Positions 7,766 to 32,166 of a stretch of DNA of 64,000 nt are shown here, piece after piece. The number at the start of each line of letters is the position of its first letter. The first letter of the stretch is position 1. A program made the position numbers and the translations under genes. This DNA is from Rhizobiaceae bacterium (GTDB lineage Bacteria > Pseudomonadota > Alphaproteobacteria > Rhizobiales > Rhizobiaceae). Below the pieces are notes generated by a model that saw nothing but the letters and a program-made list of their open reading frames with translations, did not search any database and had not been told where the DNA came from. The stretch lies in assembly GCA_017643495.1 (NCBI GenBank), contig JAEPNK010000001.1, positions 1,531,623 through 1,595,622 on the forward strand. Direction: 5' to 3'.

Positions 7766-8638
7766 TTGACCATTATCGTTGGCTTTATATTTACCATGAT
7801 TTGCATGCTGGGTGGTTTTGTAGCCATGGGCGGAAAACTGGGTGTCCTCATCCAGCCTTGGGAATATGTGATCATCGGAGGCTCGGCCATTGGCACCTTT
7901 ATTGTCGCCAATCCCATGCCCGTGATCAAGGATACCGGGAAGGCGACCATGGAAGCCTTTGCCAACCGGGCGCCCAAAAACGAAGACTATCTTGAAATCA
8001 TTGGGCTGCTTTTCACCCTGATGCAGGAGATACGCGCAAAAACACGGGCGGAAGTTGAAGGTCATATCGATGAGCCAGAAAACTCTCCGATCTTCCAGAA
8101 TTACCAGCGTATCCTTGCCGACAAGGACAAACTCAATTTCATTACCGACTATGTCCGCCTGATCATGCTGGGCAATGCCCGTCCGCACGAAATCGAGGCG
8201 TTGATGGAAGAGGAAATTCACACACTTTCACAAGACCGTCTCAAGCCATACCAGGCGGTCCAGTCTGTGGCAGATGCACTGCCGGCTCTCGGCATCGTTG
8301 CCGCGGTTCTCGGTGTTATCAAGGCGATGGGTTCGCTGGACAAGCCACCAGAAATTCTTGGTGCGCTGATTGGTGCGGCTTTGGTGGGCACGTTCGCGGG
8401 GATTTTCATGTCATATGGCATGGCAGGCCCTCTTGCTGCCAAGATAAAATCGGTACGCCAGAAGCAAAGCCGTCAGTTTGTGGTGATCAAGCAAACCTTG
8501 ATTGCCTTCATGAATGGCGCGACGCCGCACATTGCGATTGAGCATGGCCGCAAAACCGTATCCGCCAAGGATCGGCCAACCCTGGACATGGTTGAAGAGC
8601 AGACGATGAATGCTCCTGTTGCGGTGGCAGCTGAATAA
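7766..8638 (+). CDS. motA: Flagellar stator protein MotA
   Basis: Proton-channel stator subunit that converts ion flow to torque against FliG. Four membrane segments are visible (TIIVGFIFTMICMLGGFVAM, WEYVIIGGSAIGTFIVA, LPALGIVAAVLGVI, ALVGTFAGIFMSYGM) with the large cytoplasmic loop between the second and third and the conserved channel proline in LPALG. The frame can be extended to ATG 7712, but TTG 7766 is preceded by GGGGAA and gives 290 residues beginning at the first membrane helix, the normal family start. The stop overlaps fliM. The partner motB is 26 kb away, the rhizobial arrangement. Confidence 0.95.
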   Translation: MTIIVGFIFTMICMLGGFVAMGGKLGVLIQPWEYVIIGGSAIGTFIVANPMPVIKDTGKATMEAFANRAPKNEDYLEIIGLLFTLMQEIRAKTRAEVEGHIDEPENSPIFQNYQRILADKDKLNFITDYVRLIMLGNARPHEIEALMEEEIHTLSQDRLKPYQAVQSVADALPALGIVAAVLGVIKAMGSLDKPPEILGALIGAALVGTFAGIFMSYGMAGPLAAKIKSVRQKQSRQFVVIKQTLIAFMNGATPHIAIEHGRKTVSAKDRPTLDMVEEQTMNAPVAVAAE

Positions 8639-9585
8639 TGAGCGAGCAGCTGGACAGTACAGCGACTGGTCCTGACGAGGTTCCGGAGATAGCCATGTCC
8701 AATCTGGACATGGCCAAGCTTCTTCGTGAGCAGGCGGGCGATGGTGTCAAAGCTGTCCCCGGTATTGAAGAAATGATCGTGGAGTTGACTGCCAAACTCC
8801 ATCAAACGCTGATTTCCTTTACCCGTGAGGACATAGAATTCCGTTTTTCGGGAATGCGCATGTTTGACGGATTGACTGAAGAGCAGGAAGAAGATCTGCT
8901 GAAGGTACGCGTCAACGGAGAAGAGAACAGCCGCATTGCCGCTGTACTGGTTTCTGCTGATCCGGTCCGGCACGTTCTTGCAATTCTTCTCGGTGGTGAA
9001 AAAGCTTCCATAAATGATTTTGCAGAGGGTCCTTTGAGGCCTTCAGAAGCAAGCCTGTTCATTCTGTTCGTGGACCAAATCGTGGATAGCCTTGTTGATA
9101 CAGTGGATGTGGTCGCAAGCCACGGTATCCCGGGTGCGCCAAGTGTCTCGACCAAAAAAGAATTTCGCAAATTTCATGAAGACAGTGAATTCGTTGCTCT
9201 TGGTTTTTCGCTCGGTTTTGAAAACGAACTGAAATCCTTTGAGCTTTTGGTGCCGCTGGAATTTTTCGACATATTGAAGGTTTCAAGGGAAGAGGAAAAT
9301 CACGAAGAAGTCGAGCTTTCAGATGAAGAGATCTGGAACAAGGACCTGCACAGCCACGTCGAAACGCTGAAAATTCCGATGGCTGTGGAACTTTCTGCCT
9401 TTGACGTAAGCCTCGCGAAACTTGGACAGATGCAAATTGGGCAGAGATTGGTCGTCACTCCGACTGAAGGTGGCTTGCGGGTTCTGGATGAGGATTGGGC
9501 GACCGCCTTTGTAGCGCAACTGGAAATGGATACGGGTAAATTTGGTCTGCGGGTTAGCAGTGCAGCCCGAAAAGAGGAAGCATGA
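8638..9585 (+). CDS. fliM: Flagellar motor switch protein FliM
   Basis: C-ring protein linking FliG to FliN and receiving the CheY signal. The 315-residue protein has the CheC-like middle domain (FREDIEFRFSG region, LRPSEASLFILFVDQIVDSLV, FVALGFSLGFENELKSFELLVPLEFFDIL) and a C-terminal SpoA domain (LKIPMAVELSAFDVSLAKL through MQIGQRLVVTP). The usual N-terminal CheY-binding sequence (LSQDEIDALL type) is not recognisable; residues 1-25 instead read as an acidic segment ending in SNLDMAKLLREQ. It overlaps motA by one base upstream and the next gene by ATGA. Confidence 0.92.
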   Translation: MSEQLDSTATGPDEVPEIAMSNLDMAKLLREQAGDGVKAVPGIEEMIVELTAKLHQTLISFTREDIEFRFSGMRMFDGLTEEQEEDLLKVRVNGEENSRIAAVLVSADPVRHVLAILLGGEKASINDFAEGPLRPSEASLFILFVDQIVDSLVDTVDVVASHGIPGAPSVSTKKEFRKFHEDSEFVALGFSLGFENELKSFELLVPLEFFDILKVSREEENHEEVELSDEEIWNKDLHSHVETLKIPMAVELSAFDVSLAKLGQMQIGQRLVVTPTEGGLRVLDEDWATAFVAQLEMDTGKFGLRVSSAARKEEA

Positions 9586-19325: not shown

Positions 19326-20056
19326 GAGCTTTTCTGACAATTGCCATACTGGCCATGACAACACAGATTGCCGCAGGTCAGGAATTCCAGTTGGGCGAAC
19401 TGGTGCCGCAAGGTGAGGGGACATTCTCTGCCCGGATTATTCAAGGCCTCGTCGTCCTCACGGTCCTGTCGCTCGCGCCTGGTCTTTTGATAACGACAAC
19501 CTGTTTTACACGGTTCATCATCTCGTTTTCCTTTTTGCGAAGTGGTCTTGGACTGCAATCAACGCCATCGAACCTGATTGTCATCTCGCTTTCGCTGTTC
19601 ATGACCTATTTCGTGATGGCGCCGATTTTTGAACAATCGTGGAAAGATGGGGTCAAGCCGCTGCTTGAGAACAGTATCTCGCAGGAAGAAGCTTTCGAAA
19701 AAACTGTCGAGCCATTGAAAAAGTTCATGCTTCAACATATCCGTGAAAAGGATATAGACCTGTTTGAGCAATTCGTGGTTCTAGACAATCCCGATGCTCC
19801 GGTGTCAGAGGAGCCTGAACTGAGGACCATCGTTCCCGCTTTCTTGCTGTCAGAACTTCGTAGAGGGTTTGAAATCGGCTTCCTTATCCTGCTGCCGTTT
19901 CTGGTTATTGATTTGGTCGTGTCTACAGTCACCATGTCCATGGGCATGATGATGTTGCCGCCCACAGTCGTTTCATTGCCTTTCAAGGTCCTGTTTTTCA
20001 TATTGATTGACGGGTGGAATCTCCTTGTCGGAGAATTGCTGAAATCGGTGGTCTGA
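19322..20056 (+). CDS. fliP: Flagellar export gate protein FliP
   Basis: Core subunit of the export gate with FliQ and FliR. A signal-like N-terminus is followed by membrane segments LTVLSLAPGLLITTTCFTRF, ISFSFLRSGLGLQSTPSNLI, FLILLPFLVIDLVVSTVTMS and the signature MGMMMLPPTVVSLPFKVLFF. 244 residues, normal. Last gene of the rod/ring operon; fliQ and fliR are 25 kb downstream. No fliO is seen. Confidence 0.96.
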   Translation: MRAFLTIAILAMTTQIAAGQEFQLGELVPQGEGTFSARIIQGLVVLTVLSLAPGLLITTTCFTRFIISFSFLRSGLGLQSTPSNLIVISLSLFMTYFVMAPIFEQSWKDGVKPLLENSISQEEAFEKTVEPLKKFMLQHIREKDIDLFEQFVVLDNPDAPVSEEPELRTIVPAFLLSELRRGFEIGFLILLPFLVIDLVVSTVTMSMGMMMLPPTVVSLPFKVLFFILIDGWNLLVGELLKSVV

Positions 20057-20072
20057 TTAACGATTAATTAAT
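20057..20072. promoter_or_regulatory. CtrA-like box upstream of the first flagellin gene
   Basis: TTAA (20057-20060), seven bases, TTAA-T (20068-20072): matches the CtrA consensus TTAA-N7-TTAAC except the last base. It lies immediately after the fliP stop and 166 bp before the flagellin ATG. Confidence 0.45.
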
Positions 20073-20162
20073 CACGTCCCTTCACCGGGCCTTTAGAATC
20101 AGTGCTTATACCTTTGCTTGGACAAAGGCATGAACATCCAGATGAAATGAGATGACGTTGCC

Positions 20163-20197
20163 GGCATGATGCCACTTGTCTGAACCGGCGGAGCCGG
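20163..20197 (+). promoter_or_regulatory. Two-hairpin flagellin mRNA leader, copy 1
   Basis: Hairpin 1 is GGC-ATGAT-GCC (20163-20173); after 11 bases hairpin 2 is CCGGC-GGA-GCCGG (20185-20197), followed by AATGTCCC. The ATG of the flagellin gene is 40 bases further on. The same arrangement and spacing occurs in three more leaders (21384, 22619 and 23862). A candidate target for FlbT, whose gene is at 43937. Confidence 0.65.
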
Positions 20198-20237
20198 AAT
20201 GTCCCATGACTAGTATTGATCCAGAGGGGACAACACA

Positions 20238-21185
20238 ATGAACAATAGTATTAACACTAACGGCAACGCCATGACTGCTCTGCAGTCACTCAACCAGACA
20301 AACAAGATGCTCAGCAAAACGCAGTCCGCTATTGCTACGGGCTTCAAGGTTGCAAGCGCTTCTGACAACGCTGCCTACTGGTCGATCGCAACAACCATGC
20401 GTTCGGACAACAAGGCCCTTGGCACAGTTCAGGATGCTCTTGGTCTTGGTTCTGCAAAGGTCGACATCGCTTCAAACGGTCTTGAAGCTTCAATCGACGT
20501 TGTATCGGAAATCAAGGCGAAACTGGTTGCTGCTCGTGAGCCAGGCGTCGACAAGACAAAGGTTCAAAGCGAGATCGATGAACTGAAGAACCAGCTTTCC
20601 TCAATTGCTGAATCTTCTTCATTCAACGGTACAAACTGGTTGCAGAATGATGCAGCTACAGCAGCTGGTACTGCGGAAATTGTTGGCTCATTCAGCCGTG
20701 ATGCCGCTGGAAACGTAAGCGTTTCTACAGTTGATGTTGATGTTACAGGCATCACACTTGTAGGTACTGACAACGAGCAGCTTGGTCTGTTGACCAACAC
20801 AGTCAACGTTGCAACGGGTCAGAACTTCCGTCTGATCGATGTAGCGGGTGAAACGACTGCTGCTACCGGTACTGTCATTTCTGTTGACAACACAACGACT
20901 GATGCTGCTCTCGACAACATGATCCAGGCTGTAGACACAATCATCGAATCGATGACTGATGCTGCTGCCGATCTTGGTTCTACCAAGTCCCGTGTTGATT
21001 TGCAGAAAGACTTCGTTGGCAACCTGATGGATTCCATCGAAGCAGGTATCAGCACACTGGTTGATGCGGACCTCAGTGAAGAATCAACCAAGCTTCAGGC
21101 CCTTCAGGCTCAGCAACAGCTTGGTATTCAGGCACTGTCTATCGCGAACTCAAACAGCCAGAACTTGCTGGCCCTGTTCCGCTAA
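20238..21185 (+). CDS. Flagellin 1
   Basis: Filament subunit, 315 residues. Conserved N-terminal helix (MTALQSLNQTNKMLSKTQSA, ATGFKVASASDNAAYWSIAT) and C-terminal helix (STKLQALQAQQQLGIQALSI, ANSNSQNLLALFR) flank a short variable centre (about residues 150-230). First of three tandem paralogues of identical length, each with its own leader and terminator. A strong AGAGGGGAC ribosome site precedes the ATG. Rhizobia commonly have 3-4 such genes (flaA, flaB, flaC, flaD); I do not assign letters because they cannot be told apart here. Confidence 0.97.
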   Translation: MNNSINTNGNAMTALQSLNQTNKMLSKTQSAIATGFKVASASDNAAYWSIATTMRSDNKALGTVQDALGLGSAKVDIASNGLEASIDVVSEIKAKLVAAREPGVDKTKVQSEIDELKNQLSSIAESSSFNGTNWLQNDAATAAGTAEIVGSFSRDAAGNVSVSTVDVDVTGITLVGTDNEQLGLLTNTVNVATGQNFRLIDVAGETTAATGTVISVDNTTTDAALDNMIQAVDTIIESMTDAAADLGSTKSRVDLQKDFVGNLMDSIEAGISTLVDADLSEESTKLQALQAQQQLGIQALSIANSNSQNLLALFR

Positions 21186-21225
21186 GAAGCTGAATAGGGA
21201 GTAGCGATACTCCTTGAGTTTTCAG

Positions 21226-21256
21226 GCCGTCGCCATTTGTTTGGCGGCGGCTTTTT
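21226..21256 (+). terminator. Terminator of flagellin 1
   Basis: Stem GCCGTCGCCA (21226-21235) with TGGCGGCGGC (21242-21251), one G-T pair, followed by TTTTT. Ends the monocistronic flagellin transcript. Confidence 0.88.
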
Positions 21257-21383
21257 ATTGTTCGGATCTGTTTTTGTCGTGTTAACCAAATAAAAAAACG
21301 GGCTGTTAACCACCTCTTCAGCACTAGCCGCTAGTTTGTCGTTCGGACATAGTTAAAAGTACTGCTAATGAAGCAGGTTTTTC

Positions 21384-21418
21384 GGCATGAAGCCATTTGT
21401 CTGAACCGGCAGGGCCGG
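21384..21418 (+). promoter_or_regulatory. Two-hairpin flagellin mRNA leader, copy 2
   Basis: GGC-ATGAA-GCC (21384-21394), 11 bases, then CCGGC-AGG-GCCGG (21406-21418) and AATGTTCCC. The flagellin ATG follows after 40 bases. Loop bases differ from copy 1 while stems are kept. Confidence 0.65.
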
Positions 21419-21458
21419 AATGTTCCCAAGTAAGTTTTGATCCGTAGGGGACAACAAA

Positions 21459-22406
21459 ATGAACAACAGCATTAATACAAATACCAATGCAATGACTGCA
21501 CTGCAGTCACTAAACCAAACCAACAAAATGCTTTCCGAAACCCAGAATGCAATTGCTACCGGCTTCAAGGTTGCAAGTGCTTCTGACAACGCTGCTTATT
21601 GGTCGATCGCAACAACCATGCGTTCGGACAACAAGGCTCTTGGCACAGTTCAGGACGCTCTAGGTCTTGGTTCCGCAAAAGTCGATATCGCATCAAGCGG
21701 TCTTGAATCATCAATCGAAGTCGTTTCTGAAATCAAGGCGAAATTGGTTGCTGCACGTGAGCCAGGTGTCGACAAGACAAAGGTTCAAAGCGAGATCGAT
21801 GAACTGAAGAACCAGCTTTCTTCAATTGCTGAATCTTCTTCATTCAACGGTGTTAACTGGTTGCAGAATGACACTGCCGCTTCCGCTGGTACTGCACAGA
21901 TTGTCGGTTCTTTCAGCCGTGCAGCAAACGGAACAGTGGGTGTTTCTACAATAGACATCGATGTTTCAAGCTTTACCCTTATCGGTACAGACGACGAAAA
22001 CCTGGGTCTTTTGACCAACACAGTCAACGTTTCAACCGGCCAGAACTTCCGTCTGATCGATGTAACGGGTGAAACAACTTCTGCTACCGGCACGGTCATC
22101 GCTGTTGACGGTACAACAACCGATGCTGCACTCGACAACATGATCCAGGCTGTCGACACCATCATCGATTCAATGACTGATGCTGCTGCCGATCTTGGTT
22201 CTGCCAAGTCCCGTGTTGACCTGCAGAAAGACTTTGTTTCAAAGCTGATGGACTCCATCGACTCAGGTATCAGTGCACTTGTTGATGCAGACCTCAGTGA
22301 AGAATCAACCAAGCTTCAGGCCCTTCAGGCCCAACAGCAGCTTGGTATCCAGGCTCTGTCGATTGCCAACTCGAACGGCCAGAACCTGCTCTCGCTGTTC
22401 AGATAA
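21459..22406 (+). CDS. Flagellin 2
   Basis: Filament subunit, 315 residues, same architecture as flagellin 1 with identical stretches such as SDNAAYWSIATTMRSDNKAL and EPGVDKTKVQSEIDELKNQL. Differences cluster in the centre (about residues 145-215), the surface-exposed part of the filament. Own leader (hairpins at 21384-21418), AGGGGAC ribosome site and terminator. Long segments are identical to flagellin 1 at the DNA level including silent sites, pointing to recent duplication or gene conversion. Confidence 0.97.
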   Translation: MNNSINTNTNAMTALQSLNQTNKMLSETQNAIATGFKVASASDNAAYWSIATTMRSDNKALGTVQDALGLGSAKVDIASSGLESSIEVVSEIKAKLVAAREPGVDKTKVQSEIDELKNQLSSIAESSSFNGVNWLQNDTAASAGTAQIVGSFSRAANGTVGVSTIDIDVSSFTLIGTDDENLGLLTNTVNVSTGQNFRLIDVTGETTSATGTVIAVDGTTTDAALDNMIQAVDTIIDSMTDAAADLGSAKSRVDLQKDFVSKLMDSIDSGISALVDADLSEESTKLQALQAQQQLGIQALSIANSNGQNLLSLFR

Positions 22407-22440
22407 TAAAAACTTTCCGGACTATATTCCGGGGTTTCAG

Positions 22441-22470
22441 ACCGTCGCCACTATCGTGGCGGCGGTTTTC
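22441..22470 (+). terminator. Terminator of flagellin 2
   Basis: Stem ACCGTCGCCAC (22441-22451), loop TATC, GTGGCGGCGGT (22456-22466), then TTTC. Confidence 0.85.
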
Positions 22471-22618
22471 TGCATTTTGACCCAATGCCGGGGTGATAAA
22501 CGTTAACAAAAAAATTCCCTGGGTCATTTTGGAAAGATTCCGTTAACCATGTTTTTAGATTTGCTGCCTATGTTCCAACATGAAAACAAGATTTGTACTG
22601 CGTAAGAATCATTTTGTA

Positions 22619-22654
22619 GGCATGACGCCACTCATTCTTCGCCGGTTTCGCCGG
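22619..22654 (+). promoter_or_regulatory. Two-hairpin flagellin mRNA leader, copy 3
   Basis: GGC-ATGAC-GCC (22619-22629), 12 bases, then CCGG-TTTCG-CCGG (22642-22654) and AATGTCCCC. The sequence between the hairpins is unlike copies 1 and 2, so the structure rather than the whole sequence is conserved. ATG follows after 39 bases. Confidence 0.6.
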
Positions 22655-22693
22655 AATGTCCCCATTGGTTGATAGAAAAATAGGGGCACCTTT

Positions 22694-23641
22694 ATGTACA
22701 ACAGTATTAATACCAATACCGCAGCGATGACCGCGCTTCAGTCCTTGAACCAGACAAACAAGGCACTGTCTGATACCCAAAGCGCGATTGCTACGGGCTT
22801 CAAGGTTGCTAACGCATCCGATAATGCCGCTTACTGGTCAATTGCAACAACAATGCGCTCGGACAACAAGGCACTTGGTACGGTTCAGGACGCCCTTGGC
22901 CTGGGTGCCGCCAAGGTGGATATCGCAACCACCGGACTTGAATCTTCAATTGAGGTTATCACCGAAATCAAGGCGAAACTGGTTGCTGCACGTGAACCTG
23001 GTGTCGACAAGACAAAGGTTCAAAGCGAGATCGATGAGTTGAAGAACCAGCTTTCTTCGATCGCCGAATCATCCTCATTCAATGGTGTGAACTGGCTTCA
23101 AAACGACACTGCAGTTGCCGCTGGTACAGAGGAAATTGTTGCTTCTTTCAGCCGGACAGCAAACGGAACGGTTGGTGTTTCGACAATTGACATCAATGTG
23201 ACCAATTTCACCCTGATCGGCACAGATAATGAGCAGCTCGGGATATTGACGAACACCGTCAACATCGCCACGGGTGCAAACTACCGACTGATTGATGTTG
23301 TGGGTGAAACCACAGCAGCTACCGGCACGGTTATCGAGATCAACAACGCGACTACTGATGCGATCATGGACGAGATGATCCAGGCCGTCGACAACCTGAT
23401 TGAAAACCTGACAACCTCTGCTTCAGACCTCGGTTCTGCCAAATCCCGCGTTGACATGCAGAAAGAGTTTGTCGACAAACTGATGGATTCTATTGAGACC
23501 GGCATCAGTGCTTTGGTTGATGCAGACCTCAGTGAGGAGTCGACCAAACTTCAAGCGCTTCAGGCCCAGCAGCAGCTTGGTATTCAGGCCTTGTCGATTG
23601 CCAACTCCAACGGCCAGAACATTCTTGCACTCTTCCGCTAA
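22694..23641 (+). CDS. Flagellin 3
   Basis: Filament subunit, 315 residues, the most divergent of the three (for example NATTDAIMDEMIQAVDNLIE in place of TTTDAALDNMIQAVDTII). N- and C-terminal polymerisation helices are intact (ATGFKVANASDNAAYWSIAT; LQALQAQQQLGIQALSIANS). Own leader, ribosome site (AGGGGCACC) and terminator. Independent regulation of the three genes is therefore possible, while the shared leader would allow joint control of mRNA stability. Confidence 0.97.
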   Translation: MYNSINTNTAAMTALQSLNQTNKALSDTQSAIATGFKVANASDNAAYWSIATTMRSDNKALGTVQDALGLGAAKVDIATTGLESSIEVITEIKAKLVAAREPGVDKTKVQSEIDELKNQLSSIAESSSFNGVNWLQNDTAVAAGTEEIVASFSRTANGTVGVSTIDINVTNFTLIGTDNEQLGILTNTVNIATGANYRLIDVVGETTAATGTVIEINNATTDAIMDEMIQAVDNLIENLTTSASDLGSAKSRVDMQKEFVDKLMDSIETGISALVDADLSEESTKLQALQAQQQLGIQALSIANSNGQNILALFR

Positions 23642-23682
23642 GCGACGAAACTCAAGAGATTTATCTGTTTCACGTTATCTTT

Positions 23683-23709
23683 CCGCCGCTGGTCTCCAGC
23701 GGCGGTTTT
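23683..23709 (+). terminator. Terminator of flagellin 3
   Basis: Stem CCGCCGCTGG (23683-23692), loop TCT, CCAGCGGCGG (23696-23705), followed by TTTT. Confidence 0.88.
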
Positions 23710-23861
23710 CATTTCTCCGGTCATTTTCAGGCAAGGGTCTGGGACTAGGTTTTCTGGAACGCGATAGCGCATGGTTAGTGATTTATCCCGTATGTGAATT
23801 CATCGCTTGTTAATGGTTAACTGGTTAACTGCAAGCCCTCGGAGAAAGGCATTCTGGCCTT

Positions 23862-23897
23862 GGTATGAAACCCTCTCCGAAGCCCGGACGCGCCCGG
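23862..23897 (+). promoter_or_regulatory. Two-hairpin leader upstream of the chemotaxis operon
   Basis: GGT-ATGAA-ACC (23862-23872), 11 bases, then CCGG-ACGCGC-CCGG (23884-23897) and AATGTC. The first stem has GGT/ACC instead of the GGC/GCC of the flagellin leaders, a compensatory change that supports real pairing. The preferred ATG of the receptor gene follows after 31 bases. Confidence 0.55.
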
Positions 23898-23928
23898 AAT
23901 GTCTGTAAAGATCGTATCCGAGGCATTG

Positions 23929-25995
23929 ATGGCGGACACCCAATCACCTGAAATTACTGAAGACATGGAGCGAACACGCGCTGGCTCATTAGCAAGAAGT
24001 GTTTGGGTCTTCACTGCTGCACTGACCCTTGTCTTTGCATTGATTCTTGGTGTTTCAAACTACCGCAACAATCAGCTTTCCATCGGCGGAGTATCTTCTG
24101 AGCGACAAGGGCTTGCGCAGGATTTGCTTGCTGGCGCCTCTGCTCCGTCGGCGTCCGCTCTTGAAGCGTATGTTGTTGTACTTCAGGCCGTGAAGTATCC
24201 GGATCAGGCAAGCGAGTATTTTGAAAAGTTCAAACAGCATAAACAGGCATATCTTGCGGGTGCCTCAAAATGGGAACAGGCAGATATCCCGGATGAGTTG
24301 CGTCAAAAGATTGTTTCTGATGCACAAAATGCACTGACCGGTTTCTGGGCTGTTGCTGAAGACAAGGTATTTGGTCCTCTCATTGAATCCGGGAACGAGG
24401 ATGTTTCGGCCGCCTTGCAGGAAGCAGATGTGACTTTTTCCGAATACAGGGAAACCATTGAGGGCTCTCGTTCCGATGCCGCTAATTATCTGTCAGCAAT
24501 TGAAAGCGGGATTGCTCAGAAAAAATCGACGCTTGATTTAGCTTACGCAAGCCTGCTTGTGATTGGCACTCTTTTACTGGCTGCCAGCATGTATTTGCTG
24601 ATTACCCGGGTTGTCCGCCCGTTGGGGGAGATCGCCAACTACACAATGGAAATGGCCAACGGGAAAGCTGATGATGAAATCCCGTACAAGGATCGTGATG
24701 ATGAGCTTGGTAACATTGCTACGGCCCTGACAATTCTATCAAGTGCGAGCGAAGAAAAGCTTAGGGCGGAGCAAGGCATTAGCGAAGAACGCGAACGCCT
24801 GTTGAAGCTGACTGAAGAAAAAGATCTTGAGCGTGCCAGGCTGGAACAGGAAACCGCACAGGCTGTTCAAGAGATCGCTTCCACATTGAAGAAAATGGCG
24901 AAGGGCGATCTGCTCTGCCGTATCGAAAATTCATTTCCGGGTGAACTCGACAGGCTGCGCCTTGATCTGAATGCGACCATAGACCAGTTTTCCGGCACTT
25001 TCAGAAAGATCATCAACACGAGTGAGAGTCTCAATACGGGCGTCCGGGAAATGGTAACGGCGTCGGATGACCTTTCTGTTAGAACAGAGAAGCAGGCTTC
25101 CGCTCTTGAGGAGACCGCCGCGACTGTGGGGCAGATAACGGAAACGGTCCACAAATCCTCGGAAGGCGCAGAGCACACCCGAAAATTGGTTGATGCAGCA
25201 AAAACCGATGCCCAGGTGAGTGGTGATGTCGTTGAAAAGGCACTTCTTGCCATGCGGGAAATTGAAGATTCCGCAAAAGAAATAAATCAGATCATATCTG
25301 TGATCGATGAAATTGCATTCCAGACAAATCTTCTCGCTCTTAACGCGGGTGTTGAGGCGGCAAGGGCCGGTGAAGCCGGGCAGGGGTTTGCAGTGGTAGC
25401 TTCTGAGGTGCGTGCCCTTGCGCAGCGCTCGGCAACCGCAGCCAAGGAAATCAAGGAACTTATTTCCAAGTCCAGCGAACAGGTGTCCGGTGGTTCCAAA
25501 CTGGTTGGAGAAACCGGCGAAACTTTGCATCGCATCGCAAACCAGGTGATTGAGATCAGTTCTGTTGTCGGTGAAATTGCTGACGGGGCGAAGGAACAAC
25601 ACCGTTCACTGAACGAGCTCAATTTGACCGTTTCCGAGATGGATACCAGTACGCAGCAGAATGCCGCCATGGCGGAGGAAGCAACAGCTGCCTGTCATTC
25701 GTTGAAAAACGAGGCAGATGAGCTTGCCAGCCTGATGGCTTCATTCAACGTGGGGGCGTCCCACCGGAGCGCGGCATTAGCCACCATGGCAAACAAGCCA
25801 GCAGAACAATTTGTGTCAGTTCCCAAGGCTGCCAATACGTCCTCCGCCCCCATGGCTTCGCCTGCAAAGGAATTGCTCTCCAAAGTAAAGGGCGCATTCG
25901 CAAAAAATGATGATTTGGAGGACGGCAACCAGTCCCAGTCAGCCAATTTCTCCGGCAATGCGGCAATCAAGGAAGATGACTGGGAGGAATTTTAA
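23929..25995 (+). CDS. Methyl-accepting chemotaxis protein heading the che operon
   Basis: Chemoreceptor of 688 residues: TM1 (residues about 24-42), periplasmic sensor of about 160 residues, TM2 (LLVIGTLLLAASMYLLITRV), HAMP, a second HAMP-like linker (EIASTLKKMAKGDLLCRIEN) and signalling domain ([20 protein letters not shown]). The C-terminus ends in DWEEF, matching the aromatic-x-x-aromatic tether that recruits CheR/CheB. The frame opens at ATG 23899, but that ATG is part of the conserved leader; ATG 23929 preceded by CCGAGG is preferred. In rhizobia the first gene of this operon is a receptor gene (icpA/mcpE position). The next gene, cheS, starts 2 bases after the stop. Confidence 0.93.
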   Translation: MADTQSPEITEDMERTRAGSLARSVWVFTAALTLVFALILGVSNYRNNQLSIGGVSSERQGLAQDLLAGASAPSASALEAYVVVLQAVKYPDQASEYFEKFKQHKQAYLAGASKWEQADIPDELRQKIVSDAQNALTGFWAVAEDKVFGPLIESGNEDVSAALQEADVTFSEYRETIEGSRSDAANYLSAIESGIAQKKSTLDLAYASLLVIGTLLLAASMYLLITRVVRPLGEIANYTMEMANGKADDEIPYKDRDDELGNIATALTILSSASEEKLRAEQGISEERERLLKLTEEKDLERARLEQETAQAVQEIASTLKKMAKGDLLCRIENSFPGELDRLRLDLNATIDQFSGTFRKIINTSESLNTGVREMVTASDDLSVRTEKQASALEETAATVGQITETVHKSSEGAEHTRKLVDAAKTDAQVSGDVVEKALLAMREIEDSAKEINQIISVIDEIAFQTNLLALNAGVEAARAGEAGQGFAVVASEVRALAQRSATAAKEIKELISKSSEQVSGGSKLVGETGETLHRIANQVIEISSVVGEIADGAKEQHRSLNELNLTVSEMDTSTQQNAAMAEEATAACHSLKNEADELASLMASFNVGASHRSAALATMANKPAEQFVSVPKAANTSSAPMASPAKELLSKVKGAFAKNDDLEDGNQSQSANFSGNAAIKEDDWEEF

Positions 25996-25997
25996 GG

Positions 25998-26279
25998 ATG
26001 GATGCAATGTCAAGTCTCAAGCTTCAGGAAACCGTAACAGGTGATTATGCGGAAACGCTAGCCAGCGAAATTCTGGCCAACAGGAGTAAGCCACTGGAAA
26101 TTGATGCAAGTGAGGTTAGGCGGATCGATACGCCCTGTCTGGAGGTTCTGATCGCAGCCCGCAAGCAGTGGGCTGATGAAGATTGCCAACTGGCCTACGG
26201 TTCCATGTCCGACCAGTTCAATAGCGCCCTTGAAATACTGGGGTTGCAAAAAACGATGATTGAAACAGGAGATAACTGA
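25998..26279 (+). CDS. cheS: STAS-domain chemotaxis protein CheS
   Basis: Small 93-residue STAS-like protein (KPLEIDASEVRRIDTPCLEV, LIAARKQWADEDCQLAYGSM). In Sinorhizobium CheS, encoded between the receptor and cheY1, binds CheA and speeds up dephosphorylation of CheY1, the phosphate sink. Position, size and fold agree. ATG 25998 is used here; ATG 26007 with AAGGA is an alternative start. Confidence 0.85.
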   Translation: MDAMSSLKLQETVTGDYAETLASEILANRSKPLEIDASEVRRIDTPCLEVLIAARKQWADEDCQLAYGSMSDQFNSALEILGLQKTMIETGDN

Positions 26280-26280
26280 A

Positions 26281-26646
26281 ATGTCTGCAACAGTATTGAC
26301 CGTTGATGACTCCAAGACAATGCGACAGATGCTGAGCATGTGCCTGTCTGGTGCCGGGTTCAACGTAGTCACGGCAGAAGACGGCGCAGATGGTATTGAA
26401 AAACTCAAGGAATCCGAGCCTGATGTTGTCATTACAGACATCAACATGCCGATCATGGATGGCTTTGAGTTTATCGAAACGGTCCGTGGCGGTGGCTTCA
26501 ATGCCAGACTGCCGATTCTCGTTCTTACTACTGAGAGCGATGCTGCAAAGAAAGCCAGAGCCAGGGACGCTGGTGCGACTGGCTGGATCGTAAAGCCGTT
26601 TGACCCTGAAAAACTTATCAGTGCCGTTAATCGGGTAGCTCCCTAA
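26281..26646 (+). CDS. cheY1: Chemotaxis response regulator CheY1
   Basis: Single receiver domain, 121 residues: acidic pocket DD (9-10), phosphoacceptor D53 (VVITDINMPIMDGF), T/S switch (LTTES) and K105 (WIVKPFD). In the rhizobial two-CheY system CheY1 acts mainly as a phosphate sink, and CheS next to it fits that. The frame extends a few codons upstream, but ATG 26281 one base after the cheS stop is the natural start. Confidence 0.92.
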   Translation: MSATVLTVDDSKTMRQMLSMCLSGAGFNVVTAEDGADGIEKLKESEPDVVITDINMPIMDGFEFIETVRGGGFNARLPILVLTTESDAAKKARARDAGATGWIVKPFDPEKLISAVNRVAP

Positions 26647-26660
26647 CAAGAGGTGATTTT

Positions 26661-28841
26661 GTGCAACTGGATTCAATCAGAGAAACCTATTTCGCAGAGT
26701 GCGTAGACCAACTCGCAGAACTCGAAACCGGTCTCTTTACGATATCGAGCGACGGGCCGGATATTGAAACGGTCAACTCTGTTTTCCGTGCGGTTCATTC
26801 CATCAAGGGCGGGGCGGGTGCCTTCGCCCTGGATAAACTCGTGTCATTTGCTCACGTGTTTGAAAATGCCCTTGATGTCATACGCAATGACCTGTCCCAG
26901 TCCAGTGAATCCCGAATAGACCTTCTCTTGCGCTCCGCCGATGTTCTTACTGACATCGTGCAGGCGGCAAAGGATGACAGCGAGCCGGTGGATTTTACCG
27001 AGATTGCTGCAGAACTCGAGAAGGAGTTTAATCTGGAAGCGGAGCCTGAAGAGGAAGAGGTGGCATTCGATGTCGTGCCGATTTCTCTTGATGATCTCGA
27101 GATTGAAGTTGAAGAAAACAAGAACCGGTTCGAAATAAGTTTTGCACCCAAGCAGGAACTTTACCTGAATGGCCATGACCCCCAGAAAATATTCCGGGAA
27201 CTCATGGATCTCGGTGAGTGCACAATAACACCGGATGACAGTCGGGTGGCTGGTCTCGAAAGGCATGATCTTGCCAATGATCATCTTTCATGGACGATCA
27301 CTCTCGAGACAACTTCACTTGAAAACGAGGTTCAGGCGGTTTTTGAGTGGGTGCTCGACGCCTGTGAGCTTGATATCAAGGAAATTGAAACCGGCAGCGC
27401 TGCGGATGCGGACTTCAGCATCGACGATTTTCTTGATGATGTTTCGGATCTTCCTGAAGTGGAGGAGGACGACCCCGGGCTTGCCCCTGCACCGGAGCTT
27501 GACGAGGGCGTGTCGGCAATTGAAGCAATCTCAGAAGTTGCGGGCATTGATGACCTGTCATCCGGGGAAGCCCTTGCGGGAAAGCCTGAAGCGGCTCCTT
27601 CCCCCAAGGCCGCCGAAACAAAGGAAAAGCCCAAAACATCGAAATCCATTCGCGTTGATTCCGAAAAAGTGGATCGTCTTATCAACCTGATGGGTGAGAT
27701 GGTGATCAGCCAGTCAATGCTTACCCTGCAGGTAAACGAGGCAGGATTTGCTTCAGCCAGCCCTACAGGACTGGCGTTGAACGAACTGCAGACACTGACG
27801 CGTGAAATCCAGTCAAGCGTTATGTCCATTCGCGCGCAACCGATCAAGCCGGTATTCATGCGCATGTCACGTGTTGTACGGGAAGTGTGCAGTGCAACGG
27901 GCAAGAAGGCGCATCTGGTGCTTGAGGGCGAGCATACAGAAGTTGATACGACGGTTATCGAAGGTCTTTCTGACCCGTTGACCCACATGATCAGGAACTC
28001 TGTTGATCACGGAATTGAAAGCATTGAAGACCGTGTCGCCGCAGGCAAGCCGGAAGCTGGCGAGATCAAGCTGGTGGCCTCGCACAGCTCCGGCAAAATT
28101 GTTATTGAAATCCATGATGATGGTGGCGGAATAAATCGCGACAAGGTCCTGAGCCTTGCAATTGACAAAGGCATTGTATCGCCCGAAGCAAAACTCAGCG
28201 ATGAAGAAATTGACAACCTGATTTTCGCGCCAGGCTTCTCGACTGCTGACGAAATCACAGATGTGTCTGGCCGTGGCGTGGGTATGGATGTGGTGCGACA
28301 GTCAATCCAGGGTCTTGGCGGCCGGGTCAATATTTCATCCATCCCCGGCAAGGGATCGGTATTCACGATGAGTCTTCCGTTGACCCTCGCCATACTTGAC
28401 GGAATGTTGGTCAAGACCGCTGATCAGATGTTCGTCATTCCGGTGAGCTCGATGATTGAAACAATCCGCCTGAAGAGCGCCGATGTGTTTCAGATAGGCG
28501 ATCAGCACATGGTGTTCAAACTCAGGAACCAGCTCATCCCGATTGTGGATGTCGGTCCTGAACTGGGCTTCGCAGACAAGCGTACACAGTATGATGAAGG
28601 TACTGTTCTTGTTGTGGAATCCGGCAACAATTCCATGAGCGCATTCCTGGTTGACTCCATCGTTGGCCAACAACAGGTCGTCATCAAGAGCATGGAAAGC
28701 AACTATGCCCGCATACCAAGCATTGCGGCTGCCACCATTCTCGGCAATGGGCGTATCGCTCTCATACTGGATGTCGAAGAAATTGTTTCAAGGAAGGTAA
28801 GAGAGGTGCCACCTCAGCCGGTCCTGGATGAAATTGCATGA
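26661..28841 (+). CDS. cheA: Chemotaxis sensor kinase CheA
   Basis: Histidine kinase of 726 residues. P1 phosphotransfer domain with H46 (FRAVHSIKGGAGAF), an acidic linker with a P2-like CheY-binding region (about 150-260), P3 dimerisation, P4 kinase (HMIRNSVDHGIE N-box, DDGGGINRDKV and GRGVGMDVVRQSIQGLGG nucleotide boxes) and C-terminal P5/CheW-like domain. GTG start at 26661 follows AAGAGGTG. The gene order cheY1-cheA-cheW is the rhizobial one. Confidence 0.96.
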   Translation: MQLDSIRETYFAECVDQLAELETGLFTISSDGPDIETVNSVFRAVHSIKGGAGAFALDKLVSFAHVFENALDVIRNDLSQSSESRIDLLLRSADVLTDIVQAAKDDSEPVDFTEIAAELEKEFNLEAEPEEEEVAFDVVPISLDDLEIEVEENKNRFEISFAPKQELYLNGHDPQKIFRELMDLGECTITPDDSRVAGLERHDLANDHLSWTITLETTSLENEVQAVFEWVLDACELDIKEIETGSAADADFSIDDFLDDVSDLPEVEEDDPGLAPAPELDEGVSAIEAISEVAGIDDLSSGEALAGKPEAAPSPKAAETKEKPKTSKSIRVDSEKVDRLINLMGEMVISQSMLTLQVNEAGFASASPTGLALNELQTLTREIQSSVMSIRAQPIKPVFMRMSRVVREVCSATGKKAHLVLEGEHTEVDTTVIEGLSDPLTHMIRNSVDHGIESIEDRVAAGKPEAGEIKLVASHSSGKIVIEIHDDGGGINRDKVLSLAIDKGIVSPEAKLSDEEIDNLIFAPGFSTADEITDVSGRGVGMDVVRQSIQGLGGRVNISSIPGKGSVFTMSLPLTLAILDGMLVKTADQMFVIPVSSMIETIRLKSADVFQIGDQHMVFKLRNQLIPIVDVGPELGFADKRTQYDEGTVLVVESGNNSMSAFLVDSIVGQQQVVIKSMESNYARIPSIAAATILGNGRIALILDVEEIVSRKVREVPPQPVLDEIA

Positions 28842-28851
28842 GGAAGAAAAA

Positions 28852-29307
28852 ATGTCAGAAAACAACGTAGAAAAAGAAGAGTTCATTGTTTTCCGCGTCG
28901 GACAGCAGGAATTCTGCGTGGAAATCACGATGACTCGGGAAATCCGGGGTTGGACGCAGTCGACAACCTTGCCGCATTCGCCCTCCTTTCTGATGGGGGT
29001 GATCAATCTTCGCGGAACGATCTTGCCAATCGTAAACCTCGCCAAGCGTTTGGGGCTTCCGTATGAGGAGCCGACGGAAAGGCACGTCATCATTGTTGTT
29101 CAGGTCGAGGACAAGACGTTCGGTATGCTAGTGGACTCCGTATCAGACATTCTTGATGTCGGAACGGAAAACCTGCGTTCTGTCCCTGAGCTTGATACGA
29201 AAATTGCAGAAGATTTCTTCAACCGTGTTATCGTTCTGGAGGACCGTATTATCTGCGAGATCATTCCTGACAAGCTTATGCCTGACATGGAGTCTCTCGC
29301 TGCATGA
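28852..29307 (+). CDS. cheW: Chemotaxis coupling protein CheW
   Basis: Scaffold linking CheA to receptors; 151 residues from ATG 28852, preceded by GAGGAAG. CheW fold motifs: FIVFRVGQQEFCVEITMTRE, SPSFLMGVINLRGTILPIVN and the C-terminal VDSVSDILDV. The frame extends into the end of cheA, but that extension has no ribosome site. Overlaps cheR by ATGA. Confidence 0.95.
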   Translation: MSENNVEKEEFIVFRVGQQEFCVEITMTREIRGWTQSTTLPHSPSFLMGVINLRGTILPIVNLAKRLGLPYEEPTERHVIIVVQVEDKTFGMLVDSVSDILDVGTENLRSVPELDTKIAEDFFNRVIVLEDRIICEIIPDKLMPDMESLAA

Positions 29308-30185
29308 ACCAGTTTGCGACAATGCCGGCGGCTGACGCCGGCGCCGCATTATATTCCAGCGAACTGAGTGCAGCAGATTTCCGCGAGATTTCTGAACTGG
29401 TTCGCAGCATGGTGGGTATTCAGCTTACTGAAGCCAAACAGGGACTTGTTAAGTCACGCCTGCAAAAGCGCTTGCGCCGGCTCGGGATGACCCAATTTTC
29501 ACAATATGTTGCTTTTATCAAGACAGCAGAAGGTGCTGGCGAAGTTGAAGAGCTGATCTCGGCAATCTCCACAAATGTGACTGCCTTTAATCGTGAACCA
29601 CATCATTTCGAACATTTTCGTGAAAATGTGATTCCTCTTCTGGCAAAGAAAATCCATAGCCGTGAGCCCGTTCGCATCTGGTCGGCGGGATGTTCAAATG
29701 GCAGCGAACCCTACACCATTGCGTGTGCCGTACTGGATGCAATCCCGAATGCCGGGGACCATGATTTTCACATTCTGGCAACAGACATTGACAAGTATTC
29801 GCTCGCGACCGGCAAACAGGGAATCTACACAGAAGAAATGGTTTCCAAGATGCCTTCCGAGAAGGCAAAGAGCTGGTTTCAGAAAACAGACCAGGGATAT
29901 GAGGTGCACCCCAAGGCGAGAAAACTGGTAAGCTTCAAGACACTGAACCTGATGACTTCATGGCCTATCAAACGCAAATATGATGCTATCTTCTGCCGCA
30001 ACGTCATGATTTATTTTTGCGCTGAGGATCAGGCCCGTATCATTTCGCAATTTGCAAACCATCTTTATCCCGGTGCTTTCTTGTACATCGGTCATTCAGA
30101 GCGGGTTCTCGGACCTGCCGCCGAAAAGTTTGTTTCTGCTGGTGCCACAACATACCAATATGATCCCAAAAAGGTGTCAACATGA
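29304..30185 (+). CDS. cheR: Chemoreceptor methyltransferase CheR
   Basis: SAM-dependent glutamate methyltransferase, 293 residues. N-terminal helical domain (LVKSRLQKRLRRLGMTQFSQ), then TNVTAFNREPHHFEHF, the SAM pocket WSAGCSNGSEPYTIAC and ILATDIDKYSLA, and IFCRNVMIYF. Translationally coupled to cheW and cheB by ATGA overlaps. It can act on both receptors in this window; the DWEEF tail of the operon receptor is a candidate docking site. Confidence 0.96.
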   Translation: MNQFATMPAADAGAALYSSELSAADFREISELVRSMVGIQLTEAKQGLVKSRLQKRLRRLGMTQFSQYVAFIKTAEGAGEVEELISAISTNVTAFNREPHHFEHFRENVIPLLAKKIHSREPVRIWSAGCSNGSEPYTIACAVLDAIPNAGDHDFHILATDIDKYSLATGKQGIYTEEMVSKMPSEKAKSWFQKTDQGYEVHPKARKLVSFKTLNLMTSWPIKRKYDAIFCRNVMIYFCAEDQARIISQFANHLYPGAFLYIGHSERVLGPAAEKFVSAGATTYQYDPKKVST

Positions 30186-31213
30186 CTGTTAGGGTACTCG
30201 TAGTCGATGATTCCGCGTCCATGCAGCGCTTGCTTGCAGCAGTTCTGGAGACCGATCCGGAAATCAAGGTGGTTGGAACAGCTGCAGATCCGATGGAAGC
30301 GCGTACTGCCATCAAGGCTCTCAATCCGGATGTTGTAACGCTTGATGTGGAAATGCCCGGCATGAACGGTATCCAGTTTCTGGAAAAAATCATGGCCTTG
30401 CGGCCAATGCCGGTTGTCATGATTTCCAGCCATACCCAGCGTGGTACAGAAGTTTCCATGGAGGCGCTGTCAATTGGGGCATTCTGTTGTCTGCCCAAGC
30501 CCCGCCTTGATGATGAGCAGGCGCTTCGTGAAATTTGTGTGATGGTGAAGCAGGCGGCCCACTCTGCAGATTCAATCAAGCGCAAGGCAAAGGCGTCTGC
30601 AAAACCTGCACCGGCAAATTCTGACAATGTCGCAGTCAATAATTCAATAGCGACGGATTTGATTGTGATCGGTTCTTCAACCGGTGGCGTCGAGGCTTTG
30701 ACGTCATTGTTCAGAATGTTTCCGGCTGACTGCCCGCCAACGGTGGTGACCCAGCACATGCCTGCTGCATTTACAGCCAGCCTGGCAGGTCGGCTTAACA
30801 AGATTTGTGCGCCAAGTGTTTCGGAAGCAAGAAATAATGAACCACTTGAGCGTGGTCACATTTACATTGCACCGGGCGGAATAGGACACACTACGGTCGC
30901 AGGCAATGTCCACTGGAGAATGCGAATAGAGGAAGGTTCGCAAATCAGTGGTCATATGCCGTCTGTCGATCGGTTGTTTGAGACAGCAGCTTCGACGAAA
31001 AGAGGCCGGACTGTCCATGCGGCACTGCTCACTGGAATGGGTGCAGATGGTGCCAAGGGAATGTTGAAATTGAAAGAGGCGGGAGCAAAGACCATCGCAC
31101 AGGATGAAGATACCTGCCTCGTCTACGGAATGCCCGCTGCCGCCGTTCGCCTGGGCGCAGCGCAGCATGTACTGCCATTGGGAAAAATTGCCAGTGCATT
31201 GTTCAGTGACTGA
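30182..31213 (+). CDS. cheB: Chemotaxis methylesterase/response regulator CheB
   Basis: Removes receptor methyl groups for adaptation. Receiver domain at residues 1-120 with D55 (VVTLDVEMPGMNG), then the esterase domain from about 160 with the catalytic serine in IGSSTGGVEAL, histidine in TQHMPAAFT and aspartate in LTGMGADGAKGM. 343 residues. Overlaps cheR. Confidence 0.96.
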   Translation: MTVRVLVVDDSASMQRLLAAVLETDPEIKVVGTAADPMEARTAIKALNPDVVTLDVEMPGMNGIQFLEKIMALRPMPVVMISSHTQRGTEVSMEALSIGAFCCLPKPRLDDEQALREICVMVKQAAHSADSIKRKAKASAKPAPANSDNVAVNNSIATDLIVIGSSTGGVEALTSLFRMFPADCPPTVVTQHMPAAFTASLAGRLNKICAPSVSEARNNEPLERGHIYIAPGGIGHTTVAGNVHWRMRIEEGSQISGHMPSVDRLFETAASTKRGRTVHAALLTGMGADGAKGMLKLKEAGAKTIAQDEDTCLVYGMPAAAVRLGAAQHVLPLGKIASALFSD

Positions 31214-31234
31214 CTTGTAGAGGAACAAAAAGAA

Positions 31235-31624
31235 ATGGCTTTGAAAGACAAACTGCATGTGATGGTCGTTGATGATCACATTTCAAGCCGGATGGTCACC
31301 GTTGAGGGGCTTCAAAGCCTCGGAATTAGTCAAATTCAGGTGGCGAAAGACGGGCGAGAAGCATTTACGAAACTGGTTGAAAGACCGGTTCACCTGATAA
31401 TATCCGATCTTTACATGCCGGAAATTGATGGTTTCAAACTGATCCAGGCTGTTAGAAAACACCCGAAGATTGGCAAAACAGCCGTCATTATTCTTACCGG
31501 TAAAAAAGACCAGAACGTTGTCGCCACCGCCAGTCGGTTGGGGGTCAACAACGTTCTTTCAAAACCGTTCACGCCCAGCGGTCTCAAAATGGCAATTGAA
31601 TCAATCGTGGGGGCCCTTAATTGA
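31235..31624 (+). CDS. cheY2: Chemotaxis response regulator CheY2
   Basis: Receiver domain protein, 129 residues: DD at 13-14, phosphoacceptor D58 (LIISDLYMPEIDGF), T88 (ILTGKKD) and K110 (NVLSKPF). In Sinorhizobium CheY2 is the form that acts on the motor. An AGAGGAAC ribosome site precedes the ATG. It ends in a TTGA overlap with cheD. Confidence 0.93.
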   Translation: MALKDKLHVMVVDDHISSRMVTVEGLQSLGISQIQVAKDGREAFTKLVERPVHLIISDLYMPEIDGFKLIQAVRKHPKIGKTAVIILTGKKDQNVVATASRLGVNNVLSKPFTPSGLKMAIESIVGALN

Positions 31625-32166
31625 GTTTTGATGTACCTAACAGATACACCGTTCACCAATGCACACATCTTGTTTCCGATGATGATTCCACGGTCCTGAC
31701 ATCAATACTCGGGTCGTGCGTTGCGGCGTGCATTTTTGATCCGGTTGCAAAGGTGGGCGGCATGAATCACATTTTGCTGCCGGGCAAGGCAGATGATGAC
31801 ATTGATGCGCGTGCCGGAATGTATGGCGCAAACCTTATGGAATTGCTGTTGAACGACCTCTTCAAGATGGGTGCAACTAAGCGCAGTCTTGAAGTGAAAT
31901 TGTTCGGTGGCTCCAGGATGGGTATGTCTGCACTGGAAACCGGTAAAAGAAATATCGAATTTATTCAAGAATTCATAAGGAATGAGGGGTTAAAAGTGGT
32001 CTCGGAGAGCCTTGGCGGTTCTCAGGGGCGGCGAGTGGAATTCCATCCTGCTACTGGCAGATCGCGGCAAAGGCTTCTGGATGAAGTAAGCTTTGGTGCC
32101 TCGGAAGTGCAACCGCCAAAACCGGTGGTACCGGCTCCGGAAGCAGGGTCTATGGAGTTGTTTTGA
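31621..32166 (+). CDS. cheD: Receptor glutamine deamidase CheD
   Basis: Deamidates receptor glutamines. Catalytic Cys33 (ILGSCVAACIFD) and His50 (GGMNHILLPG) are present, with the conserved KLFGGSRMG. 181 residues. TTG start at 31621 overlaps the cheY2 stop; no ATG is available before the conserved region. Confidence 0.93.
   Translation: MSFDVPNRYTVHQCTHLVSDDDSTVLTSILGSCVAACIFDPVAKVGGMNHILLPGKADDDIDARAGMYGANLMELLLNDLFKMGATKRSLEVKLFGGSRMGMSALETGKRNIEFIQEFIRNEGLKVVSESLGGSQGRRVEFHPATGRSRQRLLDEVSFGASEVQPPKPVVPAPEAGSMELF

Follow-up and report, generated by a model that had tools for sequence, protein, structure and literature searches.

A structured RNA leader shared by flagellin and chemotaxis genes of Rhizobiales, with FlbT as its candidate reader

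A 64,000-nucleotide stretch of DNA from a Rhizobiaceae bacterium (the window; GenBank assembly GCA_017643495.1, contig JAEPNK010000001.1, of a genome of 3.74 Mb in 18 contigs) carries three flagellin genes and a chemotaxis (che) operon, each preceded by a leader of the same design. Our results suggest that the three flagellin mRNAs and the che operon mRNA share one family of cis-regulatory RNA, which is probably read by the protein FlbT and would switch both classes of genes on together; we assign this reading as a whole a probability of about 0.6. Judging from sequence comparison, the leader is almost certainly a structured, cis-acting RNA, and it very probably acts after transcription.

The leaders form a conserved structure

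A sequence-only reading of the window had described two hairpins in each of four leaders: a short stem around ATGAN (P1), a spacer of 11, 11, 12, or 11 bases, a second hairpin based on CCGG (P2), and then AATGT and the start codon. When the pairings were reread from the window sequence, P1 was found at 20163, 21384, 22619, and 23862, and inspection by eye located the spacers, P2, AATGT, and the downstream starts in all four leaders. The strict pattern GGYATGANRCC-N20-38-GGAATGT matched five sites in the 3.74-Mb genome, namely, the four leaders and one site without the CCGG hairpin, and the same pattern read backward matched none. The description as two hairpins was, however, too small. The element is a three-way junction, in which a long-range helix (P0) encloses a hairpin (Pb) and P1, followed by P2 and, on flagellin mRNAs, by a further helix (P3). 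What had been called the spacer is the 3′ arm of P0, and Pb sits inside P0.

This structure was assessed by comparison with other genomes. An alignment of 22 flagellin leaders, none of them from the window (A2), was made with MAFFT without reference to structure. Across the five helices, 89.1% of its cells are paired, compared to 30 to 48% when the structure is slid; both sides change in 16 of 27 pairs, and double-change cells number 41 versus 14.1 (standard deviation, 3.2) after shuffling. A covariance model built from A2, and thus from other genomes only (R1; the expectation [E] values given by the tool are rough), yielded 233 matches at an E of ≤1e-4 in a set of 81 loci (L208 and, after removal of false pattern hits and repeats, 80 of the 104 in the ranges L037 to L066 and L127 to L200). 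The best 150 of these 233 matches (A5; 149 distinct rows) hold 642 double-change cells, versus 177.5 when shuffled and at most 157 when slid, and both-side changes occur in all eight P0 pairs and all six Pb pairs. Among 19 chemotaxis leaders from 17 genomes (A6), 75 double-change cells were counted versus 27.0 after shuffling; P1 and P2 are nearly invariant in this set, whose pairing is retained in 79.5% of cells for P0 and in 73.9% for Pb. The pairing is thus kept in relatives, with compensatory changes.

P0 was also examined without selection by comparing the duplex energy of linker and upstream region with that of dinucleotide shuffles in 118 nonredundant leaders, from which relatedness was not removed. 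The 107 flagellin leaders gave a Fisher p of 1.7e-28 (42 with p < 0.05), and own linkers were distinguished from swapped ones (Mann-Whitney p, 1.5e-16). Since linkers are similar to one another, a first swap control proved weak, with 11 of 44 exceeding the 95% quantile. At least six contiguous P0 pairs appear in the predicted fold of 118 of 189 leaders. Enclosing pairs of any kind appear in 176 of 189 versus a shuffled mean of 153 (standard deviation, 4.9; maximum of 20 shuffles, 163), which is above chance but hardly discriminating.

Searched over the whole window genome, R1 ranked exactly the four window leaders first (flagellin 2, E of 3.6e-9; flagellin 1, 1.2e-8; flagellin 3, 1.9e-7; and che, 0.0026), and the next site followed at 0.32. 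The che leader scored 24.3 bits versus 39.8 to 46.3 for the flagellin leaders. A sequence-only model of A2 (R2) found the three flagellin leaders in the window and missed the che leader at an E of ≤10; elsewhere, it recovered 18 of 19 chemotaxis loci, missing L272, and therefore sequence alone carries much signal there. A weak R1 match at 8926 to 9017 (plus strand; E of 0.11 in the window, under the four leaders) lies within an open frame (8638 to 9585) and is probably due to chance. No Rfam family reached its cutoff in the window or in 18 relatives, and a permissive Rfam search of 20050 to 24000 gave five subthreshold matches, none over the four elements.

Anatomy of the element

All four elements lie on the plus strand. 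The flagellin 1 leader (20118 to 20232) comprises P0 (20118 to 20125 with 20176 to 20183), P1 (GGC-ATGAT-GCC, 20163 to 20173), P2 (20185 to 20189 with 20193 to 20197), and P3, in which TGTCCC (20200 to 20205) pairs with the Shine-Dalgarno sequence GGGACA (20227 to 20232); the R1 match here spans 20137 to 20241 and aligns P0 and Pb differently. The flagellin 2 leader (21342 to 21453) has P0 (21342 to 21349 with 21398 to 21405), Pb (21362 to 21366 with 21372 to 21376), P1 (21384 to 21394), P2 (21406 to 21410 with 21414 to 21418), and P3 (21421 to 21427 with 21447 to 21453). The flagellin 3 leader (22604 to 22688) lacks Pb, and its P0 (AAGAAT/ATTCTT, 22604 to 22609 with 22634 to 22639) is weak and the least convincing of the four; P1 (22619 to 22629), P2 (22642 to 22646 with 22650 to 22654), and P3 (TGTCCCC, 22657 to 22663, with GGGGCA, 22683 to 22688) follow. 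The che leader (23839 to 23927) contains P0 (23839 to 23845 with 23874 to 23880), Pb (23846 to 23850 with 23857 to 23861), P1 (GGT-ATGAA-ACC, 23862 to 23872), P2 (23884 to 23887 with 23894 to 23897), and P3 (AATGTCT, 23898 to 23904, with AGGCATT, 23921 to 23927).

In the window's family and in the flagellin leaders of 74 named loci (Aurantimonas, Hoeflea, Rhizobium, Sinorhizobium, Ciceribacter, Neorhizobium, Agrobacterium vitis, and others), the former spacer pairs with a stretch mostly 20 to 45 bases upstream, around P1 and often another hairpin. P1 consists of three pairs around the loop AUGAN, and its outer pairs vary (GGC/GCC, GAC/GTC, TGC/GCA, AGC/GCT, and CGC/GCG). The change from GGC/GCC to GGT/ACC in the che leader was correctly read as compensatory and adds one more to the outer-pair changes seen in relatives. 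The loop itself reads AUGA in 147 of 149 A5 rows and in all 19 A6 chemotaxis rows.

P3, the helix predicted to sequester the Shine-Dalgarno sequence, has AATGTCCC as its 5′ arm. The canonical arm AUGUCCC follows P2 in 165 of 186 flagellin leaders, and all 165 can form at least five pairs with the downstream leader; in the first 150, the Shine-Dalgarno GGG is predicted to be paired with a mean probability of 0.987. Some of the 21 deviant arms still pair with other letters (TGCCCT/GGGGCA at L170 and TGCCT/AGGTA at L081) and others do not. No alternative helix that frees the Shine-Dalgarno sequence was noticed by eye, and P3 arms hardly vary. A candidate pairing of GGCAU with AUGUCC was rejected as unsupported because the AUGUCCC arm stays mostly constant while P1 changes. 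In 117 leaders, 67 boxes reading TTAACC, a CtrA-like sequence, were located; 42 of these lie 26 to 35 bases before P0, a distance that would put the start of those transcripts close to P0.

The element precedes chemotaxis genes in other genomes

The proposed extension from filament genes to the chemoreceptor/che operon held: the che leader is the fourth best R1 site of its genome, chemotaxis leaders elsewhere carry compensatory changes of their own, and we consider the link real because 17 further genomes have the element 5′ of a chemotaxis operon or a chemoreceptor gene (19 loci, families f2 and f42 included). In 41 genomes of the window's family, R1 made 69 matches at an E of ≤0.003; about 60 adjoin flagellin genes (coordinates compared by eye and confirmed for G418), eight, counting the window, belong to che operons, and the remaining one, L258, is unassigned. 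Nine of 17 secondary R1 matches stand before operons of the type methyl-accepting chemotaxis protein (MCP)-(STAS)-CheY-CheA, and eight do not (L258, L264, and L266 to L271); L264 and L266 to L271 are weak matches without flagellin or che genes. Chemoreceptor homologues led to three more element-bearing che operons (L272 to L274). A further 26 chemoreceptor loci included one match (L102, E of 2e-4) and 25 loci without a clear element (L101 reached an E of 0.1), and 18 more regions with R1 matches comprised 10 flagellin loci, 7 chemotaxis loci (L333 and L335 to L340), and 1 that was neither (L343, E of 2.6e-4). One f42 genome (G238) has the element at three chemotaxis loci and one flagellin gene.

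The L258 match (7083 to 7175, minus strand, G400; genome E of 1.3e-4) forms a good three-way junction 5′ of a polysaccharide-biosynthesis-like region, and no che or flagellin homologue was found in the 7.8 kb examined.

Spread of the element

The strict pattern matched 45 of 397 genomes of the order, compared to two for the backward control, and among the matches read, those with the CCGG hairpin lie mostly 5′ of flagellin genes. When 297 genomes of the order were searched under strict filters, by which weak matches are lost, R1 found the element in 68, which represent 32 of 123 genera and 15 families (f1, f2, f11, f16, f18, f23, f28, f30, f34, f35, f36, f41, f42, f44, and f45). Named genomes of Sinorhizobium (species other than S. 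meliloti), Rhizobium, Hoeflea, and Aurantimonas carry it. In 29 flagellin loci of other alphaproteobacterial orders (none from Caulobacter), R1 gave no match at an E of ≤1, the presence of a leader not having been checked locus by locus. A class-wide search of 385 genomes, in which R1 scored about nine candidates per genome, placed every match below an E of 9e-4 inside the order; of 16 matches outside it (E of 9.8e-4 to 0.05), 11 were read and none precedes a flagellin gene.

Several single loci are of separate interest. Second flagellin genes without the element occur at L079 (~2685), L081 (~2661), L089 (~1509), and L094 (~1506); at three of them, a GGTTGGTTCC-like stretch stands right before a GTG or TTG start. 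A 1.5-Mb genome of the window's family (G164) retains one element-bearing flagellin (L345, 479 to 594, plus strand) and FlbT. In the window's genus, G406 gave no flagellin match, and neither G406 nor G503 gave a chemoreceptor match, which suggests that motility has been lost within the genus.

One clade of FlbT accompanies the element

The window encodes FlaF (43590 to 43937, plus strand; PF07309, 2.2e-24) and FlbT (43937 to 44407, plus strand; PF07378, 3e-38), the latter our candidate trans-acting factor. Of the 297 genomes of the order, 210 encode FlbT. When tables were compared by eye, it was present in 67 of 68 element-bearing genomes, the exception (G113) being 86% complete, and 21 of the 25 genomes with two copies were element bearing. 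A tree of 68 rows was built from the window FlbT, FlbT of element-bearing genomes (the copy near the element or the only copy), further copies, and FlbT of element-free genomes; two duplicate rows were dropped, one duplicate locus went unused, and second copies from f44, f11, and f41 genomes were not included. The tree splits with 100/100 support, over a very long branch, into 22 element-associated proteins, including that of the window, and 46 others (32 from element-free genomes and 14 other copies). The element thus tracks one FlbT clade and not the organism (22 of 22 versus 0 of 46 sampled). In four f35 genomes (G035, G253, G143, and G236), the element lies ~12 kb from the clade-associated FlbT, and the other copy is elsewhere. 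Among the 29 flagellin loci of other orders, 13 contain flbT; 12 of these are nearer the non-element clade, and one (L304) is nearer the element clade. Structure prediction for FlbT from its single sequence gave a useless model (predicted local distance difference test score, 40), and a profile search of solved structures returned one match with an E of 0.54.

Genes around the leaders

The flagellin genes (20238 to 21185, 21459 to 22406, and 22694 to 23641, all on the plus strand) encode 315 residues each. Flagellin 1 has the Pfam domains Flagellin_N and Flagellin_C, flagellin 2 is 88% identical to flagellin 1, and flagellin 3 is 83% identical to flagellin 2. The first gene of the che operon encodes an MCP (23929 to 25995, plus strand; Pfam MCPsignal and HAMP). 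A start at 23929 is plausible; the first in-frame ATG, at 23899, is an alternative that falls within the leader element. Genes for a STAS protein, a CheY-like protein, CheA, CheW, CheR, a CheB-like protein, a second CheY-like protein, and CheD follow (25998 to 32166, plus strand; Pfam STAS, CheA, CheW, CheR, response regulator, and CheD), of which the CheB and first CheY labels come from position and same-order homologues. Just 5′ of flgE, 38854 to 39567 (plus strand) encodes a response-regulator DNA-binding domain and, below the Pfam cutoff, a receiver domain; we presume that this protein could be a regulator of the Rem/FtcR type.

Relation to known systems

Anderson and Gober reportedly described, in 2000, control of the fljK flagellin leader of Caulobacter crescentus by FlbT (as related in PMC4347634, PMC8781033, PMC9812332, and PMC7591256). 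Caulobacter FlbT is reported to act through mRNA decay or translational repression (PMC4347634, PMC9812332, PMC7591256), FlbT of Brucella is a proposed activator (PMC4347634, PMC8781033), and the lateral flagellins of Bradyrhizobium reportedly undergo translational induction by FlbT (PMC8429497); a review calls the mechanism unresolved. Our element resembles the Caulobacter case as reported in that a flagellin 5′ leader is targeted, flbT and flaF are present, and late flagellar genes are involved. It differs in that its FlbT belongs to a clade apart from that of the sampled element-free genomes, chemotaxis genes also carry the leader, and R1 made no match at the 29 other-order loci. The sequence-only reading had proposed an RNA element of the FlbT type by analogy with Caulobacter; the RNA element, the structured flagellin leader, and flbT in the same genome stood, and the identification with the Caulobacter target was not supported, given the absence of matches at the 29 loci of other orders and the separate FlbT clade. 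Shared late control is not a new idea, because a motility screen in Agrobacterium fabrum mentions FlbT-type control of Class III transcripts (flagellins and Che proteins) in Caulobacter (PMC9812332). Our searches of the open-access literature, outside which lie most subscription journals and the original FlbT papers, turned up no account of this RNA or of its occurrence on che mRNA.

RF01736 (flg-Rhizobiales; Weinberg 2010, PMC2864571) is likewise described as a cis-regulatory RNA of flagellar genes in Rhizobiales. It differs in having GGGA-loop hairpins right before an apparent flgF start (the gene name is our own reading), whereas the element has AUGAN and variable loops and precedes flagellin and MCP genes; the best RF01736 match in the window genome lies elsewhere and reaches 14.9 bits versus a gathering score of 55, and we rejected an assignment to this family. 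At L007, L008, and L009, RF01736 matches run into a start that reads MENALLIGLSRQ in consensus (flgF-like, again by our reading). In G035, the FlbT copy that belongs to the other clade lies ~21 kb from RF01736, and therefore each flagellar system may own a leader RNA. Flagellar systems of Rhizobiales have been divided into a subpolar type and a lateral type, the latter being the only one in Rhizobiaceae and a second one in some other genera (PMC6406911). The FlbT split resembles this division, and from their similar distribution we infer a match between the lateral type and the element with its FlbT clade; the excerpts of that paper mention no leader RNA.

Discussion

Leaders that hide the Shine-Dalgarno sequence include riboswitches, ribosomal-protein leaders, and CsrA targets. 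The present element is like them in that P3 is predicted to pair with the ribosome-binding site on flagellin leaders, though not on most chemotaxis leaders, and differs in its upstream junction with an invariant AUGA loop, its two functional gene classes, and the absence of a known ligand. The computation shows the RNA family, the outline of its structure, how widely it is spread, and its occurrence on both classes of genes; Shine-Dalgarno hiding, the protein partner, and the sign of control are inferred. An RNA-binding protein would likely recognize the almost invariant AUGA loop in P1 together with the CCGG stem in P2. FlbT, encoded ~20 kb downstream and from a clade that travels with the element, would be the most likely protein; we rate it slightly more likely than not to be the partner. 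On flagellin mRNAs, P3 would hide the Shine-Dalgarno sequence, and the modeled pairing makes it fairly likely that this hiding matters there. Binding may open P3 or otherwise recruit ribosomes or stabilize the mRNA, so that filament and chemotaxis proteins would be switched on jointly, late in flagellar assembly. By analogy, we favor FlbT-dependent activation over repression or decay of the Caulobacter type, because FlbT has been reported to activate flagellins in Brucella and, in the lateral system, in Bradyrhizobium.

Several observations weigh against this reading. Folded singly, the four leaders are no more stable than shuffles (eight folds; z of +0.05 to -0.67), so the case rests on comparison and not on energy. 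The A2 rows were picked for a junction in the predicted fold, and the A5 and A6 alignments were fitted to the structure. In the duplex test, P0 was weak in the 11 chemotaxis leaders (Fisher p, 0.0125; 3 with p < 0.05). On plain MAFFT alignments, RNAalifold returned only P1 for a mixed set and, for the chemotaxis set, P2 in addition to P1; it misses P0 because P0 shifts register. P3 pairs are mostly near constant and prove little, and 12 of the 19 chemotaxis rows have gaps at the inner P3 columns, so that hiding of the Shine-Dalgarno sequence is not a general feature. The TTAACC box was not seen before leaders of several other families (f44 and f11). As for FlbT, the tree program warned of long branches, and the clade match may just reflect inheritance of the whole flagellar system; since such inheritance gives the same picture, co-occurrence is support for, and not proof of, recognition of the element by FlbT.

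A posttranscriptional element read by some other factor (another RNA-binding protein, an RNase or 5′ stabilizing structure, or a small RNA) is unlikely, although it must be taken seriously: a near-invariant unpaired AUGA suits any sequence-specific binder, FlbT occurs in more genomes than the element (210 versus 68 of 297), and no solved structure links FlbT to an RNA-binding fold. Against this stand the reported regulation of a flagellin leader by FlbT in alphaproteobacteria and the sampled tree, in which the FlbT clade tracks the element without exception. It is more doubtful still that P3 works alone as a protein-free switch responding to temperature or a metabolite, or tuning translation, the junction serving as a scaffold or as the pocket for a ligand. 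The Shine-Dalgarno region is pairable in nearly all flagellin leaders, and three-way junctions with an invariant loop occur in riboswitches too, but the 12 chemotaxis leaders gapped at inner P3 keep the junction and P2, and a ligand logic is not evident.

Conservation as DNA, with the hairpins as by-products of a promoter or operator of late flagellar genes (for CtrA, Rem, or another regulator), is very improbable. TTAACC boxes are frequent 26 to 35 bases upstream of P0, and a start-site study of S. meliloti places CtrA motifs 5′ of flaA, flaC, flaD, mcpE, and mcpY (PMC3616915, excerpts), yet the helices stay paired while both of their sides change, DNA sites conserve letters whereas those of P0 and Pb are free, and the sequence-only model loses the che leader. 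We give even less credence to the view that the flagellin leaders form a real RNA family to which the che leader belongs just by chance or as a decayed copy; its lower bit score, its different P3, and the other fold that RNAfold alone prefers for it point that way, but the element recurs at 19 further chemotaxis loci in 17 genomes with compensatory changes of their own.

Beyond the reading of one RNA family that is probably recognized by FlbT, we tentatively suggest that FlbT is two regulators. A lateral-type clade of the Hyphomicrobiales would activate translation through the junction leader, coupling filament and chemosensory genes, and the other clade, with unrelated leaders, could repress, as in Caulobacter. 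If this is true, the sign of control would depend on the RNA partner and not on what the protein is called, and the contradictory accounts of FlbT would be explained. With a defined RNA in at least 15 families of one order, there is now a candidate target for FlbT, whose effect differs in sign from species to species. With the same leader on flagellin and chemotaxis genes, production of the propeller and of its steering may be coupled posttranscriptionally.

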